64,000 bases of DNA from Ceratodon purpureus. Lineage: Eukaryota; Streptophyta; Bryopsida; Pseudoditrichales; Ditrichaceae. A model generated the notes under the pieces. That model was not told the DNA's origin. It did no database searches and saw nothing but the letters and a program-made list of their open reading frames with translations. Made by a program: the position numbers and the translations under genes. The stretch spans positions 15,224,517 to 15,288,516 of the forward strand of contig CM026426.1 in NCBI GenBank assembly GCA_014871385.1, written 5' to 3'. Shown here in pieces: positions 7,741 through 17,600 of the stretch; the stretch's first letter is position 1; every line of letters begins with the position of its first letter.

Positions 7741-9930
7741 AATCTCTGAAAGGTGGGTCCAAGGCCTCCGAGACTGAAGGGCTCACACCCGCGCCTCATG
7801 AGAACAGTAGTTTCCAACCCCTTCAGGCCACAGCAGCAGTCCCCTCGTCATTGGACACCACTCTGGAAGAGGTAGGTCAATGTCCTTTGCTTCATTTCAG
7901 TACGTCTCCTGTCAAATTCTGCCAAATTGCAGTCTGTGTTCTCAATCATGGAACCGTACCGCAACCTAGGTACATGATGCCACGAAATGCTCCCTGGATT
8001 CCCTCACACGCTCTAAATTGATCATTCCTGTGTCCCCCTCCTTTCCTTATACATTATAAAGGTAGTGTACAGCTGCCGTACATAGGCAGTACTCAAAGCA
8101 TCTGAGGTTGCAATCCTCAGGACATGAGTATGTTCAATGTACTTCTCACACGGTTGATGCTTTTTAGACTGCAGACACCAGTGGAACAGTTGGGATCGAC
8201 CGTTACAAATTAGGAAGTGACAAAGACAATTCCGCCACAAAGGAAAAGTGGACGGGCGATCAAGAAAAAAGTATCGAGAGACTAACGTATGAACTTCTTG
8301 ACCCACTCTTGTTTGCTTCGTAGGGGCATCGGTAGTTGAATTGAACCGCCCTGATCCTACGTTACGCATTGCGGTACAGTGCCAGATTTCCCATTACCAG
8401 CATCTCGGAAGTAACTGTTTCTCTGTAATTTTCCAGGCACGTCGCAGCATGGTGCGTCAGCGTTCAACCATCAGGTAGTATGCTAGTGCTAATACTCAGT
8501 ACTGTTCTCTTGGCACAGCCCGTTGTTCATGTGTCATATCGTATACAGTCGATTATCAGCAACATCTTCTCCACTTGCTCATCGTTCTACTCTAGCAGCA
8601 TAAGTTTCAATTTGATCGGCTGAATACTCTTCATGTTTGTACCGTGTACAGGAAATTAAGACAATCAGACGCTACCATAAACCATATTTTTTTTGCCTCC
8701 CAGGTTTCCTGCCTGGCCCGAAAGTGTCTTGGTGGCCTCCTTCACAGGATTTCGCGGAATAGTTCTGTGTGCACTACAAGTCCTGATCTCGGCTTGACAC
8801 GTTCCACTCCGTGTTCCAGCCATATCTCTTATATGTTCTTCGTCCTCCTAGCATCGGAAACCATGCTCATCAGAGCCGGCCTCACAGATGGTTATCTTCA
8901 CAGATGCGCAGTGATGATAACGTCACTTAGGAGCGGCTGCTCTCTCGAATTGTCCAACCATGTCGTGTGCACCCCACACAGATCTGTTGAGGCTTTTTTT
9001 CATACGAGGAACATGGAGTTTTTTGACGAAGTGGATACACTTCCAACTAAGATACGGAATCAGTGAACAGTGTACTCCTTTTATGATCAAATATAAATAT
9101 TTTTTGTTTTGTATTTCTCAAATATTCTCCGAGGATTTTCAGTTCTTCCCGCACGGATTGTCACAGAACCCATTTTCTGATTTATGATCCTCCAAAAAAG
9201 TAATTTGCGTATAATACTCTTCAGTATTTTCTAAACCGTATTCACTTTGGTATTAGATTTCTATACCGTACACATTTCGAATGAAACCCTAGCACGGGAA
9301 CCTCCAGGTGTTGGACACGCGTCAACACATGGAACAATCATCTCATGCCATCCGAGGGGCTGAATTGACCGTAGGAATGCATCGCATGGAACCACAGTTG
9401 TTCACGTGTTCGTTTCTGTGCCGTAGATGTAGATCTACACGGATCGTGAGATTGCGCCACCTGCCTATAACACAGGGTTCCCATTGAACCTGCAACCATT
9501 ATTGCACATGTCCTTTTTTCTATCGTACTCGACACCATGGTTGACCATTTATGTTGAAGATTCTAAGGAATTAATGGAGGCACGGTCAAACTAGTCTCTG
9601 CAGACCGGTCTTCGTATTCCGGGTATCAACGTGTCCACGCACTCACGGGTGTACACCGTGGCAATGGACCGTGGCAATGGACTCGCGATGCACAAGAAAA
9701 TCAAGTAAACTCTCTCCCTGTCTCTTGAAACCAACTTGTCCGATTCAAGAGCAATCAAGAGAAAGAATCAACAGAATTCTCTTCCAGACCACTTGATTCA
9801 CCTGCGGGTTTTCTAGTAGTGATTGGATTGTTTATACAGATAATCTCCAGAGAAAGCTCTAAACCTTCGAATACTATGTGTTTCTGGGGCCTAATTCTCG
9901 GTGACGTTGTGATTGTTTATCAATTTGCAG
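7741..9930. other. No recognised gene; right flank of the CACTA region
   Basis: Apart from the possible coiled-coil tail of the preceding gene (to about 7880), only short unplaced frames are seen. The longest (8644-9066, 140 codons, plus) shows no recognisable motif. The missing 5' exons of the ABCG pseudogene that begins at 9931 were looked for here and not found. Confidence 0.4.
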
Positions 9931-11937
9931 GAGAAATGATTGTCGGCCCTCAGAAGGTGTTGTTCATGGACGAGATATCCACAGGGTTAGACAGCTCAAC
10001 AACATTCAGCATCGTCAGAAGCTTGCGGACGTACACACACGAAATGTTGACAACACTCATGATCTCGTTGTTGCAACCAGCGCCTGAGAGCTTCAATCTC
10101 TTCGACGATGTAATCTTACTGTCCGAGAGCCAGGTTGTCTATCATGGTCCGATTGCTCATGTCACGGAGTTTTTCGAGCTGTGTGGTTTCAAGTCTCCTG
10201 AGAGAAAGGGCATTGCTGACTTTTTGCAAGAGGTAACTAATTTCAATCAACCATCTCTCCCATTCATCACAATCAAATCTGTGCAATGCTTTGCAAAATT
10301 GGTATTTTTGTGCACTAATTGTAGAATGTTAGACCCTCGAAAATATATGGAAATGTTGAACATCTCAATTTCGTTCGCTGCCAGGTCACATCTCGGAAGG
10401 ACCAAGAGCAATACTGGATGGATAAACGCAAACCTTACCGATACGTTCCTGTGAAGAAATTTGTGGAAGAGTTTCAGAAATTCCATGTAGGCACCAACAT
10501 CAAGGATGAGCTTGCGGATCCATACCCAAAGGAGAAATCTCACCCGGCAGCACTAATAAAGGAGAAATACACGATCTCAAAACTTGAACTCTTCAGAGTG
10601 ACCTTCGAGCGGGAAGTCGTCCTCATGAAACGAAACTCCATCGTCGCAATTGTGAATGTTGTGGAGGTAATATACACCTCGGATAAGCTAGATCATTTGC
10701 ACAGAAATTCTCTGTAGACAGTAAACTAGTTCCATTTTCAAGCTCAGAGTGATGCATTCTACCAGGAAGAATCGTGCATTGATCAAATATACATGTCTTT
10801 TGCAGATCGCAGTGAGTGCATTCATCTCGATGACAGTCTTCTTCCGCACACGGCTCAACCAAGACTCTGTCGGCTCAGCATCCCTGTACCTGAATGCTCT
10901 CTTCTACGCAGTGATCGTCATGATGTTTACAGGGTTTGGCGAGCTAGCAGCAACAATTGGGCGGCTCATTCGGCAACGTGACATGCTCTTCGCCCCTGCG
11001 TGGACCTACTCCGTCTCAGCCATGGTGCTAAGCGTCCCACTCTCACTGCTCATGTGCGGGATCTTCACCGGCATGACATACTACGTAACTGGATACTCAC
11101 CAGATGCGAGCCGCTTCTTCAAGCAATTCCTGCTCCTTTTCTTAATCCAACAGCAGGCTGGCGGCATGTTTCGCTTCGTCGGTGGTGTGTGTCGCACCAT
11201 TACATTGGGTTTTACGTTAGGATGGATCCTGATTCTGCTCATCTTCATGCTTGGTGGTTTCATCATGCCTCGTCCCCAGCTTCCAATATGGTGGCGGTGG
11301 GGTTACTGGACAAGCAGCCTAAGCTACTCGGTTTACTCCATCGCTTTCAACGAATTCAAGTTGAACGGTGGAATAAGGTAATCTACACAAATGATTGTAT
11401 TGTTCACCCTCATATTTTATGTATTGTATTCTAATGGGTTCTGCCTCCATGAATAATTGCAGCCTTCTGCTCCAGGTAGCAGCGAGAGCATCAGTGACAG
11501 TATTCTAAACGCTTACGGCCAGCACACAGGTGAAAACTGGTATTGGATCGAAGTCGGCGCTCTTATTGGATTCTACGTGCTGTTCAACCTTGGCTTCACC
11601 ATAAGTCTTGAGTACATGCCCGGTGAGGTCTTTTGCTTCCACATTATCATGCTGAAGATTTAGTTTCAACTCATCTAGAACTTTCCATAATGCCCTGTTC
11701 CTCACAACGATTTGCCATAGTCATTGGTAACTGTTGAATTCAGGCTTGGGGAAACCTCAAGCGGTTATGTCCGAGGAAGAGCGGCAGGAAAAGAAGCAAA
11801 CAGAACCGGTGACACATTGAGTCTAGGCAGATCAAAGTCACGAAAATCTGTGGGCGAGTCCCAGTCACTAGCAACCATCATGGGCTCAAGGAAAGGTGCA
11901 GCAACGCCTAACAACCAGAGCAGGTGGGCGACATCAG

Positions 11938-12079
11938 TGTTGGCACAAAAGAGATAAGCTCTGAAGAGAGATTGATCATTGTACGAAGTGAATAAATACA
12001 GGTTTAGCCGGAGGCTGTGTTAACCTAAACCTAATTCTATAATTAGAGTTAAAACCCTAATGGATGTAAAGTGTGAACA
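11938..12079 (-). repeat. LTR (3' LTR in element orientation)
   Basis: This 142 bp repeat is identical, base for base as read, to 14520-14661, and begins TG and ends CA on either strand. It contains an AATAAATA stretch. Identity of the two LTRs indicates a recent insertion. Confidence 0.95.
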
Positions 12080-12090
12080 CCCCCTCTCAA
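12080..12090 (-). promoter_or_regulatory. Polypurine tract
   Basis: On the minus strand TTGAGAGGGGG immediately precedes the 3' LTR, as expected for the primer of plus-strand DNA synthesis. Confidence 0.85.
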
Positions 12091-12153
12091 CCCGATACGG
12101 GGAGTGTCGGGGTGTAATTGCGAGCTTTGTACAATTTTGTCGGAGTAGATACA

Positions 12154-12883
12154 ATGGACGTGCGGAGCAGTGTTGTCGGAAGCCGGGGCACCTGGGTGGA
12201 CGTAATATTCCTGTTGATTTGGTCGGTGTCGGCGGCAATATTCGTTGTTGTGCGAGGGGTCTTTGAGGTGGTTGACAGCTGGGTAATGCGCCGATGGAGA
12301 AGGATCGCTGATGTAGAATGTGTCGCAGAGGAGGAGCGTGACGAGCGCAGTGGTGAGCGCCGACTAAGCGGTTCTTCAGCTGGTAAGTACTCAGAGACTC
12401 GTTGTATGATGATCGTGAAGTGTGTGTTTATCGGTGCGGTGTTCCTCCGTTGCTTGATTTGATTAGCTGCTGCGTTCCTTCAGTTTTTGCGTGATTTCAA
12501 ATCCTTCCAGCGCTGTGTAATTGGTGCTGTGTTGCGCGTGCGTGTCTCTCATGGCCTTCATCGGTTGGTGAGATAACACGCTGCTGGTTGCTAATTTTCC
12601 GTTTGCTGTAGATAAATCCGAGTCCCGAGTCTGTGCAGCGGAATGCTCGACTACAATTGGGATGACACGAAGAGAACGGGTTAGGGTTTTGCCAATCGAC
12701 CCGAGCACAGTTAGGAGGAGTAAATCAGGTTTTAAATCTAAGTTCTATGCAGTTAGACGAGGTAGGGTTACGGGAATTTTTCTGAGCTGGGAGGATTGTA
12801 ATCTACAGGTATGTAGGTTTAGAGGTGCCGAATTTAAATCATTCGGGACGCTGGAGGAAGCAACTGTATACTTGACAGGTTAG
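12154..12883 (+). CDS. Antisense two-exon gene: membrane segment plus RNase H1-type hybrid-binding domain
   Basis: Exon 1 is 12154-12382 and exon 2 is 12612-12883. The donor is G|GTAAGTACT and the acceptor TTTGCTGTAG|A. Splicing keeps one frame of 166 codons plus TAG. Residues about 15-40 form a hydrophobic segment (VDVIFLLIWSVSAAIFVVV), followed by an Arg/Glu-rich stretch. The last 45 or so residues match the small N-terminal domain of eukaryotic RNase H1 that also occurs in caulimovirus P6: FYAVRRGRVTGIF, SWEDCNLQV, FRGAEFKSF, TLEEATVYL. That fold binds RNA/DNA hybrids and double-stranded RNA. The gene runs opposite to the RT frame, and the two stop codons overlap (TAA 12880-12882, TAG 12881-12883). 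A promoter was not identified. The hydrophobic segment and its function are inference; the domain match is strong by eye. Confidence 0.7.
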
Positions 12884-14520
12884 GATTTGCTTCTTAGGTA
12901 GGAAAGGCTATGGAGATTTAGGCTGTTCCTGTGGAGTTCAAATTTTACTCGTCCTAGAGGTTTTGTAAGGATGTCTGCTGGCTGTTGCGATGTACTAATA
13001 AACTTCAAGCCTATTTCCCCCTCGAGTACACGCTCTCTTATAAAGTGGTGGTGGATTTCTATGTGTTTGCTACGGGCATGGAAGACAGGGTTTTTCGCCA
13101 ATTTAATGGCGCTCTGGTTGTCACAGTAGACTTGTACTGAGGGTTCTAGGTGTGATTGAATGTCTGTATTGGCATGATGAACTGAAACGGGTACTTGCGG
13201 GAGAAGGCGTAGCTCTTGGAGGAGGCGAGAAATCCATACAGCTTCCTGGACTCCGTCACTCAGGGAGCGATACTCAGACTCAGTGCTGGAGCGTGAGATC
13301 GTGAGCTGTCGTTTACTTTGCCAGCTTAGGGGTGCACCCGCAGCGGTCATGAGGTAAGCTCCCACACTTCTCCTTGTATCCGGGCATGTGCCCCAGTCAG
13401 CATCAGTGTAGCCTCGGATTTCAAATTTCTGCTTGTACTGGTAAAGAAGACCATAGTCTAGAGTTCCCTTTAGGTACCTTAGGATATGATGAGCAGAATC
13501 TAAATGGCTTTGTTGAGGACAGGACATATAGGAAGCTATTCTATTGACTGCATAGGAAATGTCTGGCCGAGAGATTGTGAGGAAGATGAGTTTACCCACT
13601 AGTTTAGAGTAATAGGTAGAGTCTATGTTAGGAGTTCCTGTGTGAGAGGTAAGAACCTGACCTGCTGGAAGTGCGACTTTCGCAGGTTGAAACGAGGATG
13701 GCAGAAATTCTGCGACGATGGAGGCAGCGTAGTCTCGCTGGTGCAGGAATATGCCCTGAGGTATGTATTCAAACATAACTCCCAAATATTTTGAAATTCT
13801 GCCGAGGTCAGTCATCTCGAAGGTCTTTTGTAGATATTGTTTTATCCAGGTTATAAGGCTTGGACAGCTACCTGTAATGAACAAGTCATCAACGTATAAC
13901 ATTACTAATAGAATGTTGCTATTTTGATGCAGATAATAGAGATTTGGGTCGAAGGAGCTCCTGCTGAGACCTATGTCGCGAAGAGAACCATCGATGCGGT
14001 CGTACCACGCCCGTGGTGACTGTTTTAGTCCGTAGAGGGAGCGGATAAGTTTGCAGACCTTCGTTTCTTGTCCTGGCACCTCGAAACCGGGGGGCTGTTT
14101 CATATAAACCTGCTCTTTCAAGATTCCGTGAAGAAAGGCAGTCCGGACATCCATGTGGTGGATGTCCCAGCCATGACTCGCTGCGAGGGCAATAGAGGTA
14201 CGTATTGTTACCCATTTGATGACTGGCGCGAAAGTTTCATCATAATCCAATCCTGGTCGTTGTTCAAAACCACGAGCTACTAATCTTGCTTTATGGATCA
14301 CAGGTGTCTTAGCAGGTCCCTGCTTGGTGCAAAAAACCCAACGGCACGTGATCGGTTTCACACCTTCAGGTAGGCTCTCCAAACTCCATGTATTGTTGCG
14401 GTAAATACTCTCCATTTCTTCTTTCATAGCAGTGTACCACCGTGGGTCTTGGAGTGCTTGTTTGAACGTGGGTTCAGAAGTCGAGTCACCGCTGTCGCCA
14501 ATGGAATGCTCTGATACCAT
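12880..14520 (-). CDS. Copia reverse transcriptase-RNase H, pol C-terminal part only
   Basis: An open frame of 546 codons. After about 20 residues read from the primer-site region it enters the copia RT domain (FKQALQDPRWYTAMKEEM, CRWVFCTKQ, KARLVARGFEQRPGLDYDETF, HHMDVRTAFLHG). It has the catalytic YVDD in LLVMLYVDDLFITG, then SRPDISYAVNRIASYM. The RNase H part follows (YTDADWGTCPDTRRSVGAYL, SSTESEYRSL, VYCDNQSAIKLAKNPVFHAR, HHFIRE) and the usual tail with PADILTKPL. All motifs of an active RT are present and no stop or frameshift is seen. Normally this is the C-terminal half of a gag-pol polyprotein; here gag, protease and integrase are gone and the frame starts with the ATG at the LTR junction. 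Its TAA overlaps the stop codon of the antisense gene at 12154-12883. Confidence 0.93.
   Translation of the reverse strand: MVSEHSIGDSGDSTSEPTFKQALQDPRWYTAMKEEMESIYRNNTWSLESLPEGVKPITCRWVFCTKQGPAKTPVIHKARLVARGFEQRPGLDYDETFAPVIKWVTIRTSIALAASHGWDIHHMDVRTAFLHGILKEQVYMKQPPGFEVPGQETKVCKLIRSLYGLKQSPRAWYDRIDGSLRDIGLSRSSFDPNLYYLHQNSNILLVMLYVDDLFITGSCPSLITWIKQYLQKTFEMTDLGRISKYLGVMFEYIPQGIFLHQRDYAASIVAEFLPSSFQPAKVALPAGQVLTSHTGTPNIDSTYYSKLVGKLIFLTISRPDISYAVNRIASYMSCPQQSHLDSAHHILRYLKGTLDYGLLYQYKQKFEIRGYTDADWGTCPDTRRSVGAYLMTAAGAPLSWQSKRQLTISRSSTESEYRSLSDGVQEAVWISRLLQELRLLPQVPVSVHHANTDIQSHLEPSVQVYCDNQSAIKLAKNPVFHARSKHIEIHHHFIRERVLEGEIGLKFISTSQQPADILTKPLGRVKFELHRNSLNLHSLSYLRSKS
14508..14519 (-). promoter_or_regulatory. 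Primer binding site for initiator Met tRNA
   Basis: On the minus strand the bases TGGTATCAGAGC directly follow the LTR. This is the standard plant Ty1-copia primer site, complementary to the 3' end of initiator methionine tRNA, where minus-strand DNA synthesis starts. Confidence 0.95.
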
Positions 14521-14661
14521 GTTGGCACAAAAGAGATAAGCTCTGAAGAGAGATTGATCATTGTACGAAGTGAATAAATACAGGTTTAGCCGGAGGCTGT
14601 GTTAACCTAAACCTAATTCTATAATTAGAGTTAAAACCCTAATGGATGTAAAGTGTGAACA
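14520..14661 (-). repeat. LTR (5' LTR in element orientation)
   Basis: Identical partner of the LTR at 11938-12079. Its inner edge abuts the primer binding site, and the ATG that opens the RT frame is formed exactly at the LTR/primer-site junction: the last LTR base is the A. Confidence 0.95.
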
Positions 14662-17600
14662 ATCAGCGGGCCAACGTACCGAATCCGATGTCGAAGATGT
14701 CGAAGTTGCCGATTCAGTTCAGAAAACGAAGCGAGGAATGATTTTGCCTTTCCAACCGCTATCAATCTCATTCGATGATGTCAGTTACTTCGTCGACATG
14801 CCTGCTGTAAGTCTAATCCCCGACCTCACCCAAATTTTCATCACACTTCAAGCAACACTAATCTTCACATGGTAACCAAATCTTTGAGGTGCATTTGTCC
14901 TCATGGGCATTACATACTCGACAACTAAATGTGCAGGAAATGAAGTCAGCCGAAGTGACGGAGACTAAGTTGCAGCTACTCAACAAAATCACGGGGTCTT
15001 TTCGACCAGGTATACTTACGGCCTTGGTCGGAGTTAGCGGTGCCGGGTAAGCTTCAAACTCTTGATCCTTTTCATTTCACCGCAATTCTTCAAGGTGTAT
15101 GTTTCAAGCAATGTTTCTTCAACCAGACTTGATCAGTAGCAAGGTTAATGTATATGCAAGTCTTAGCTGGATTTATTACATAGAGTGATGTGATAATTCG
15201 AAGACACTGCAAAAGGGTGAACTTAGACTTTTGTTTCCTTGATCACTCATTACTACATGAAAGTTTATGATTTACTCATAATCTGAATCCGACATTTTGA
15301 TTATTCAGGAAGTCGACGCTTATGGATGTGCTAGCAGGACGAAAAACAGGTGGTTACATCGAGGGCGATATCCGCATCTCAGGATACCCGAAGAACCAAA
15401 AAACCTTTGCGCGTATATCAGGTTACTGCGAGCAAAATGACATACACTCTCCACAGGTGACAGTCCGGGAGTCTCTCATCTACTCAGCTTGGCTTCGGTT
15501 AGGATTCGACGTTGACGACGAGAGCAAAATGGTGAGTATTCCATCACACATCATCTTCTCTTATCATCGTATGAATATTTTCAGTTGATATTTACAGGTT
15601 GAACGTTACTCAATTCAGCAAGCAATCGTAAAATTTTCTTCATTTTATACTGTCTGTCAAGGTAATATTTATTTGAATGTTTACTCTCATATCATTTTTA
15701 GCAGAAGGGTTATAAATTGTTGTTATTTTATAAAGCTTTTCTGTGTTTCCAAGCCTTTGTGGACGAAGTCTTGGAGTCGGTGGAGCTGACGGCGCTGGAG
15801 AATGCGCTTGTTGGGGTGCCTGGCATCACGGGGTTGTCAACAGAGCAGAGGAAAAGGCTGACGATTGCGGTGGAGCTGGTTGCGAATCCGTCAATCATTT
15901 TCATGGACGAGCTCACGAGTGGGCTGGATGCGCGAGCGGCTGCCATTGTGATGCGGTGTGTGCGCAACACGGTGGACACCGGTCGAACTGTTGTGTGCAC
16001 CATCCATCAACCGAGCATTGACATCTTTGAGGCCTTTGATGAGGTATGCAAGTGTCAAATTATTTTATATGTTTGTCCATGTTTGGTTGTGAGATTGCAG
16101 ATTAGTGGAAGATGATTGGTACCTTGTTCTTCTTAGATCCATCTGTTGTAACAATATTCTTGATTGCTGTTTGGTTCCGTCTTTCACTTCTTTTTTATCT
16201 GTTGGATGAGCAGCTTTTGTTGATGAAGCGAGGTGGGCAAGTCATCTATGCAGGCGAATTGGGTCACAGTTCAGTAAACTTGTCGAGTATTTTGAGGTAG
16301 GTACCTCCTTCAAATTGATATCGGTACATGTTACATAATTACGAACAATCATGCAGTGGAAGTAGAAATTGACAGGATAGTCTGTTGAACGGTATTCTTC
16401 GTGCATTTTCATTATGCCAAACGTGCATAGATTGTACGAATTGTGGTCCGTTCAAGTCATTTCTGACTGTCAAAAGTACTCCTGTCAAAATTCTTTTCGT
16501 AGACCTAATTAAACCAAGTTTCGGCACTGTCTGTGAAGGGAATCCCTGGAGTCTCCAAAAACACGGAGGGGTACAATCCTGCAACATGGATGTTGGACGT
16601 GACCAATGTTGAAGTGGAGGCACAGCTTGGAGTGGACTTGGCAGATATTTATCGGAAGTCCGACCTTTACCAGTACGATTCTACAAAACCACACTTATCA
16701 TTGTCAAGATAAACCTGAACTTTCATGCTAATTGAAACGGATAGAGAAGGTATTCTTCTCTTAAATCAACAGCTACGTGTGTGTATCTGGTTCTGTTTAA
16801 GTGAATATGATCTATCGTTAACCATGGTGTTATTGAGCAGGCGTAACAAAACTCTTGTGAACGATCTGCGTGTCCCAGCCCCGGGATCAAACGACGTTCA
16901 CTTCCCAACAGAGTTTCCTCTGTCGTTCATCCAGCAGCTATGGTGCATTCTTTGGAAGCAAAACTTGACGTATTGGAGGAGCCCAGATTACAATCTCGTC
17001 CGATATGGCTTCTCGTTCTTCACTGCGCTCATTTGTGGAAGCATCTTCTGGGGTGTTGGACAAAAATTGTAAGCTCCAAATCTTAATATGATCCAAATGC
17101 AATACGAAGCCATACCCAAGTGATGCTTGAATTTGATGTTGTTGCTCTTGTTCTTATGACCAACTTGTCTGTTGCAGCTCAAAGTCTTCGGATCTGGTCA
17201 TCACCATGGGTGCATTATACGGATCAACGCTGTTCATATGCTTCAACAATGCCGGCACAGTGCAGGCGATGGTGAACCGTCCACTACAAAGAAAAGGCAG
17301 CCGGGATGTACTCTGCAATTCCGTATGCATTGGCACAGGTATCTACTTCTCCATCCTCGCCATTTTTTTACAATGGTTCATAAACTCCTCAAACAAGACA
17401 TAATTCTTTGAATTGAACCAGGTATTGATCGAGGTTCCATATGTGCTGGTGCAAGCAACCTTGTATGGACTCATCACATACTCAATGCTACAATTCCAAT
17501 GGACAGCGGCAAAATTCTTCTGGTACCTCTACATATTATTTATCAGCTTCCTCATCTACACATTCTACCGAATGATGATGGTGGCCATCACTCCGAACTT

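Follow-up and report, generated by a model that had tools for sequence, protein, structure and literature searches.

A predicted spliced antisense gene with an RNase H1-type hybrid-binding domain in a Ty1/copia lineage of Ceratodon purpureus

The antisense gene, its protein and the host element

The window analyzed here is a stretch of 64,000 nts of the Ceratodon purpureus genome (contig CM026426.1, positions 15,224,517 to 15,288,516) containing a Ty1/copia retrotransposon, and the subject of this work is a gene located between pol and the 3′ long terminal repeat (LTR) of this element, in the orientation opposite to gag-pol. The gene starts with an ATG at position 12154 and comprises two exons on the forward (+) strand, namely exon 1 (12154..12382; 76 codons plus 1 nt) and exon 2 (12612..12883), which encodes a linker, an RNase H1 N-terminal hybrid-binding domain (HBD) and the stop codon, and which is supported by a Pfam match and by substitution rates (see below). 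They are separated by a modelled phase-1 intron of 229 nts (12383..12611, +), whose donor GTAAGT starts at 12383 and whose acceptor CTGTAG has its last base at 12611; compared with the exons, the intron is diverged and rich in indels. Joining of the exons yields 501 spliced nts, including the stop, and a protein of 166 residues. The TAG of the gene (12881-12883) overlaps tail to tail with the stop of the reverse transcriptase (RT) frame on the opposite strand (12880-12882). Both the intact spliced frame and the overlapping stops had been noticed in a preliminary description made from the DNA letters, and both were reproduced.

The C-terminal HBD (residues 120-161; 12740..12865, +) matches the Pfam family PF01693 with an E-value of 4.1e-18 (65.8 bits, cut-off 21), so that the domain, first proposed from a residue pattern, is recovered by its profile. 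The solved structures matched are RNase H1 HBDs, namely 3bsu (E-value 1.9e-12), 6vrd and 1qhk, and by hand count 25 of the 44 residues aligned with 3bsu are identical. In the HBD of RNase H1, change of a Trp abolishes hybrid binding, and a pair of Lys residues also has a role in binding (PMC10639055). The binding Trp (human W43) is aligned with the Trp of 3bsu and does not vary among the 13 aligned copies, while the first position of the Lys pair (human K59/K60) is occupied by Lys in 9 and by Arg in 4 of the 13; relative to 3bsu, the window protein retains the first Lys and has a Ser in place of the second. The RNase H catalytic domain is absent from the 166-residue protein, PF01693 being the sole domain recognized by Pfam.

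Toward the N-terminus, codons 12196..12252 (+) specify the hydrophobic segment VDVIFLLIWSVSAAIFVVV, which is followed by an Arg-rich stretch. Its mean Kyte-Doolittle hydropathy is 2.61 over 19 residues, and in 24 N-termini the 19-residue hydropathy peak ranges from 1.62 to 2.61, with basic residues next to it in most cases. The segment is likely a membrane helix, as judged from hydropathy; of the membrane segment proposed earlier, the hydrophobic stretch stands as such, and its location in a membrane is what the hydropathy suggests. Ahead of the HBD, a Cys-pair motif (e.g., CEHC or CPNC) is present in the copies L065-L067 of the far lineages described below, and clusters of Cys occur in the linker of some near copies; these cysteines could possibly form a metal-binding site.

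The assignment of the host element to Ty1/copia relies on an RVT_2 match (Pfam; E-value 5.3e-74) in the RT-RNase H reading frame of 546 residues (12880..14520, reverse strand, as are all element features that follow). The 5′ LTR (14520..14661) and the 3′ LTR in pol orientation (11938..12079) are identical, 142 bp each, and the target duplication ATCAG is found on both flanks. The polypurine tract GAGAGGGGG (sense strand; 12080..12088) adjoins the 3′ LTR and belongs to a block conserved in the aligned copies. The primer-binding site TGGTATCAGAGC (14508..14519) abuts the 5′ LTR and presumably fits the 3′ end of the complete initiator tRNA-Met. In the Bryco copia lineage of mosses, the primer-binding site is complementary to half tRNA-Met (PMC6317226). 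The copia setting of the preliminary description is confirmed by RVT_2, LTRs and target duplication, but the copy in the window is incomplete: a deletion has removed gag, protease and integrase, the RT frame begins within the primer-binding site, and the deletion junction occurs only once in the genome.

The copia order of gag and integrase is present in a complete relative. In this copy, made up of L010 and the adjoining L059, a single open frame of 1438 residues contains the domains of copia gag, gag-pre-integrase and integrase, the LTRs are identical at 141 of 141 bp, and the antisense gene is intact, with 165 residues. Because of these complete frames, identical LTRs and intact gene, the antisense gene is assigned to recently mobile, apparently autonomous elements.

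Between the LTR and the antisense ATG lies a leader (12080..12153, +) that, in a comparison of 12 copies, is 67-96% identical to that of the window. Its block 12089-12111, CCCGATAC...GTGTCGGG, is a possible hairpin adjoining the polypurine tract, kept in near copies but not clearly so in L021-like copies. An Rfam scan of the window gave 0 matches. As for the surroundings, the element interrupts an ABC-2 type ABC transporter gene (9819-16112), as indicated by Pfam matches on either side, with ABC_tran under its cut-off. A nested insertion was also seen elsewhere (L015, 1950-4402), where a 3′ fragment resembling the window element lies inside another copia RT having its own opposite-strand HBD.

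Distribution, gene models and selection across the lineage

The analysis covers one genome, of 362 Mb in 151 contigs. We compared the best 150 of 727 RT candidates with HBD matches taken as the best 150 each of 247, 248, and 261. An HBD match is found within 1.5 kb beyond the RT end at 132 of the 150 listed RT matches, where random placement expects 0.19, and it lies on the strand opposite to RT in 132/132 cases. The arrangement spotted at a single locus is thus far beyond chance and common among relatives of the element, the listed RTs being between 100% and about 50% identical to that of the window. On the other hand, 21 RT matches were found only with a second, more distant RT query, and among the matches listed none of these (0/21) adjoins an HBD; the antisense HBD gene therefore looks restricted to a lineage. 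Contig C6 (110.5 Mb), which holds the window, carries 127 of 214 listed HBD matches, above its share of the 362 Mb.

The gene has diverged together with RT. RT and HBD protein distances, compared for 29 of 31 loci, are correlated (Mantel r = 0.73; 0 of 2000 permutations), and stops in RT and HBD co-occur (79/7 versus 34/11; Fisher p = 0.015). Among the 27 stop-free RT matches whose open frames are no shorter than 1400 residues, 25 have a stop-free HBD, one has an HBD with a stop, and one has no HBD match.

A DNA search of the genome returned 26 matching stretches. Of 20 loci retrieved, 16 were aligned (L023, L024, L026, and L027 omitted). Fifteen gene models were built, omitting L012 and L013, which are without exon 2; the splice sites were positioned by hand from the alignment. 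The ATG, GT donor, AG acceptor and reading frame are preserved in the aligned copies: all 15 models have GT-AG borders, 14 have a phase-1 intron and 12 are open throughout, one of these only as far as the end of its slice. The introns measure 80 to 270 nts. Relative to the window, exon 1 indels are of 3 or 12 nts, all multiples of three, while the intron has indels of many other lengths. In exon 2, indels are of 3 nts, with two exceptions: L021, L025, and L028 lack 19 nts at the acceptor edge, and L015 has a 4-nt gap that corresponds to the slice end.

In three far elements, whose RTs are 55-58% identical, a model of the antisense gene with two introns is possible: an exon 1 of seven codons, a phase-0 intron, an exon with the helix, a phase-1 intron, and an exon with the Cys-pair motif and the HBD. 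A single clear model is obtained in two of the three, and in all three a phase-1 intron separates helix and HBD, matching the window; in the L060 lineage, helix through HBD are read without intron. That this phase-1 intron can be placed in the models of near as well as far lineages points to a single old gene whose introns were retained across long divergence. Such retention fits an intron that splicing of the sense RNA would not see.

Selection was estimated from the ratio of nonsynonymous to synonymous rates (dN/dS; NG86) in 20 chosen of 91 possible pairs, with L014 omitted. The whole-gene dN/dS is 0.19-0.40 in 20/20 chosen pairs, that of the HBD is 0.04-0.31 (17 usable pairs of 20) and that of exon 1 is 0.19-0.54 (19 usable of 20). 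Since the gene overlaps another coding frame only at the stops, this purifying signal does not stem from the sense strand, and at the level of the sequence the antisense gene itself is under purifying selection.

Known systems and other HBD genes

Antisense extra open reading frames (ORFs) of plant LTR elements are known, and their function is described as open (PMC7264820). Those called aORF-3R or eORF-3′R lie between pol and the 3′ LTR of plant Ty3/gypsy elements, as in Grande gene23, RIRE2 and Retand TRP28 (PMC7264820, PMC11963269). The gene of the window resembles them in position, orientation and presence in most copies, and TRP28 also has a predicted nucleic-acid-binding domain; unlike them, it belongs to a Ty1/copia clade and has an intron, an identified RNase H1 HBD and a hydrophobic helix. 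A survey that classified plant LTR elements counted, as far as its available text goes, only ORFs of at least 250 codons (PMC6317226), a minimum that a two-exon gene of 166 residues would escape. In the open-access literature, subscription papers being outside our scope, we found no report either of an HBD in an antisense retrotransposon gene or of a copia element with this gene.

With RNase H1 the protein shares the HBD sequence and its key Trp, but it has a hydrophobic helix instead of the RNase H catalytic domain. HBZ of human T-cell leukemia virus type 1 (HTLV-1) is likewise the product of a spliced antisense gene of a reverse-transcribing element, read from the 3′ LTR side, although HBZ is a bZIP protein without HBD. 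As noted at the outset for the caulimoviruses, P6/TAV (viroplasmin) carries PF01693 and is also the product of a reverse-transcribing element, a likeness by family and not by direct alignment. However, P6 is a sense-encoded, multidomain transactivator of 520 residues, the window protein an antisense product of 166 residues with one recognized domain, and only the HBD is common to both. P6 suppresses silencing (PMC3836500, PMC7102451), probably via DRB4; the common domain is therefore no proof of a common role. Finally, capE is a PF01693 gene on a fungal Helitron, exclusive to one Helitron group (PMC4289320), and thus another HBD gene on a transposon, but its carrier is a DNA transposon and the available text reports no antisense arrangement.

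HBDs also occur apart from the element in this genome, 84 of 216 listed HBD matches not adjoining a listed RT. Five loci (L062, L063, L064, L068, and L069) are solitary single-exon ORFs away from a listed RT and with no RT in the sequence covered around them, with a hydrophobic N-terminus and a C-terminal HBD; L062 and L063 are 82% identical over 3.3 kb, with proportions of synonymous and nonsynonymous differences of 0.25 (pS) and 0.10 (pN). Another HBD ORF (128-residue open frame; G000:C6:15219961-15220194), without a listed RT, lies 4.3 kb ahead of the window. A genome search with the RNase_H profile for a host RNase H1 beside an HBD revealed none by eye, adjacency not being computed, and its matches resemble elements with long ORFs, up to about 3000 residues. 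HBD relatives were found in 2 viral contigs (L070, L071) and 44 prokaryote contigs (L072-L115), and no plant relative appeared in these scans of viral contig and genome contig collections. In a tree of 48 columns including bacterial HBDs, the far-lineage and solitary HBDs are separate from the window group and bacterial sequences are interleaved. This tree gives no resolved branching, and the argument for one origin of the HBD comes from intron phase and protein layout instead.

Possible role of the protein

We favor, as the probable explanation, a clade-wide antisense accessory gene of this Ty1/copia lineage that encodes a membrane-tethered protein binding the duplexes of the element. Transcription would start from a promoter in or adjoining the 3′ LTR, and after one splicing event (two in the deeper lineages) translation would give a protein of about 150-180 residues. 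The N-terminal helix would serve as its membrane anchor and the Arg-rich flank would retain the remainder in the cytosol, where the HBD could bind either the RNA/DNA hybrids of replication or the RNA/RNA pairs formed by antisense mRNA and genomic RNA. As every part of the antisense mRNA has its complement in the genomic RNA, such duplexes are expected where both RNAs are made. Held or covered at the membrane, they may allow better replication of the element or spare it from RNA silencing; we give these two benefits about equal weight. A membrane-held duplex binder is the simplest reading of the helix plus HBD layout. A more specific version, in which a counter-silencing protein is encoded on the very strand whose transcript provokes silencing and, held at a membrane, covers the antisense mRNA/genomic RNA duplex, is doubtful. 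If it were true, the solitary helix plus HBD genes would be either host-adopted copies or the source from which the gene came.

Several observations weigh against the tethered duplex binder. At the second binding Lys position (human K60), 10 of the 13 copies have Ser and the other 3 Ala, and in some lineages the helix is less hydrophobic, with values as low as 1.62. The linker evolves fast (dN/dS 0.19-3.55, with 4 of 19 usable values above 1), 3 of the 15 gene models are broken (L009, L014, and L022), and 18 of the 150 listed RT matches are without a listed HBD. The splice sites are hand-placed, and the third far model has eight candidate second acceptors. Expression, splicing, binding and role are all inferred from sequence, and in one species.

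The same data bear on the other explanations. Regulatory antisense RNA might be what counts, with the reading frame secondary: the transcript would be able to pair with the genomic RNA from end to end, some retroelements are regulated by antisense RNAs (PMC7264820, PMC12786077), and the leader is strongly conserved. However, the dN/dS ratios (0.19-0.40 for the gene, 0.04-0.31 for the HBD), the exon 1 indels in multiples of three, unlike those of the intron, and the 12 open models out of 15 make this unlikely, and on these grounds a purely non-coding antisense RNA was rejected. The preliminary description had also considered a captured host fragment. The five solitary single-exon helix plus HBD ORFs could indicate a host source, but a functionless passenger is very improbable given the HBD at 132 of 150 listed RT matches, a divergence pattern like that of RT (Mantel test) and purifying selection (dN/dS); the gene is old and clade-wide, and a one-off capture was discarded for these reasons. 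As the gene is enclosed by the LTRs of the element and 132 loci show the arrangement, an independent host gene beside one insertion has a negligible probability, and the same recurrence rules out a chance ORF.

Alternatively, the protein could help the RNase H or RT of the element in trans as a hybrid processivity clamp, the helix being only an assembly or packaging signal. The HBD is indeed the hybrid domain of RNase H1, and the Pfam scan detects no HBD in the element's own RT-RNase H frame. Replication hybrids, however, form inside particles, to which a separately made membrane protein would, on general grounds, have poor access, and we regard this possibility as rather tentative.

Returning to the antisense accessory gene, surveys with a cut-off of 250 codons can overlook spliced antisense genes of this kind. 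The gene described here combines a biochemically characterized domain with an intron, clade-wide spread and clear selection, which makes its function directly testable.
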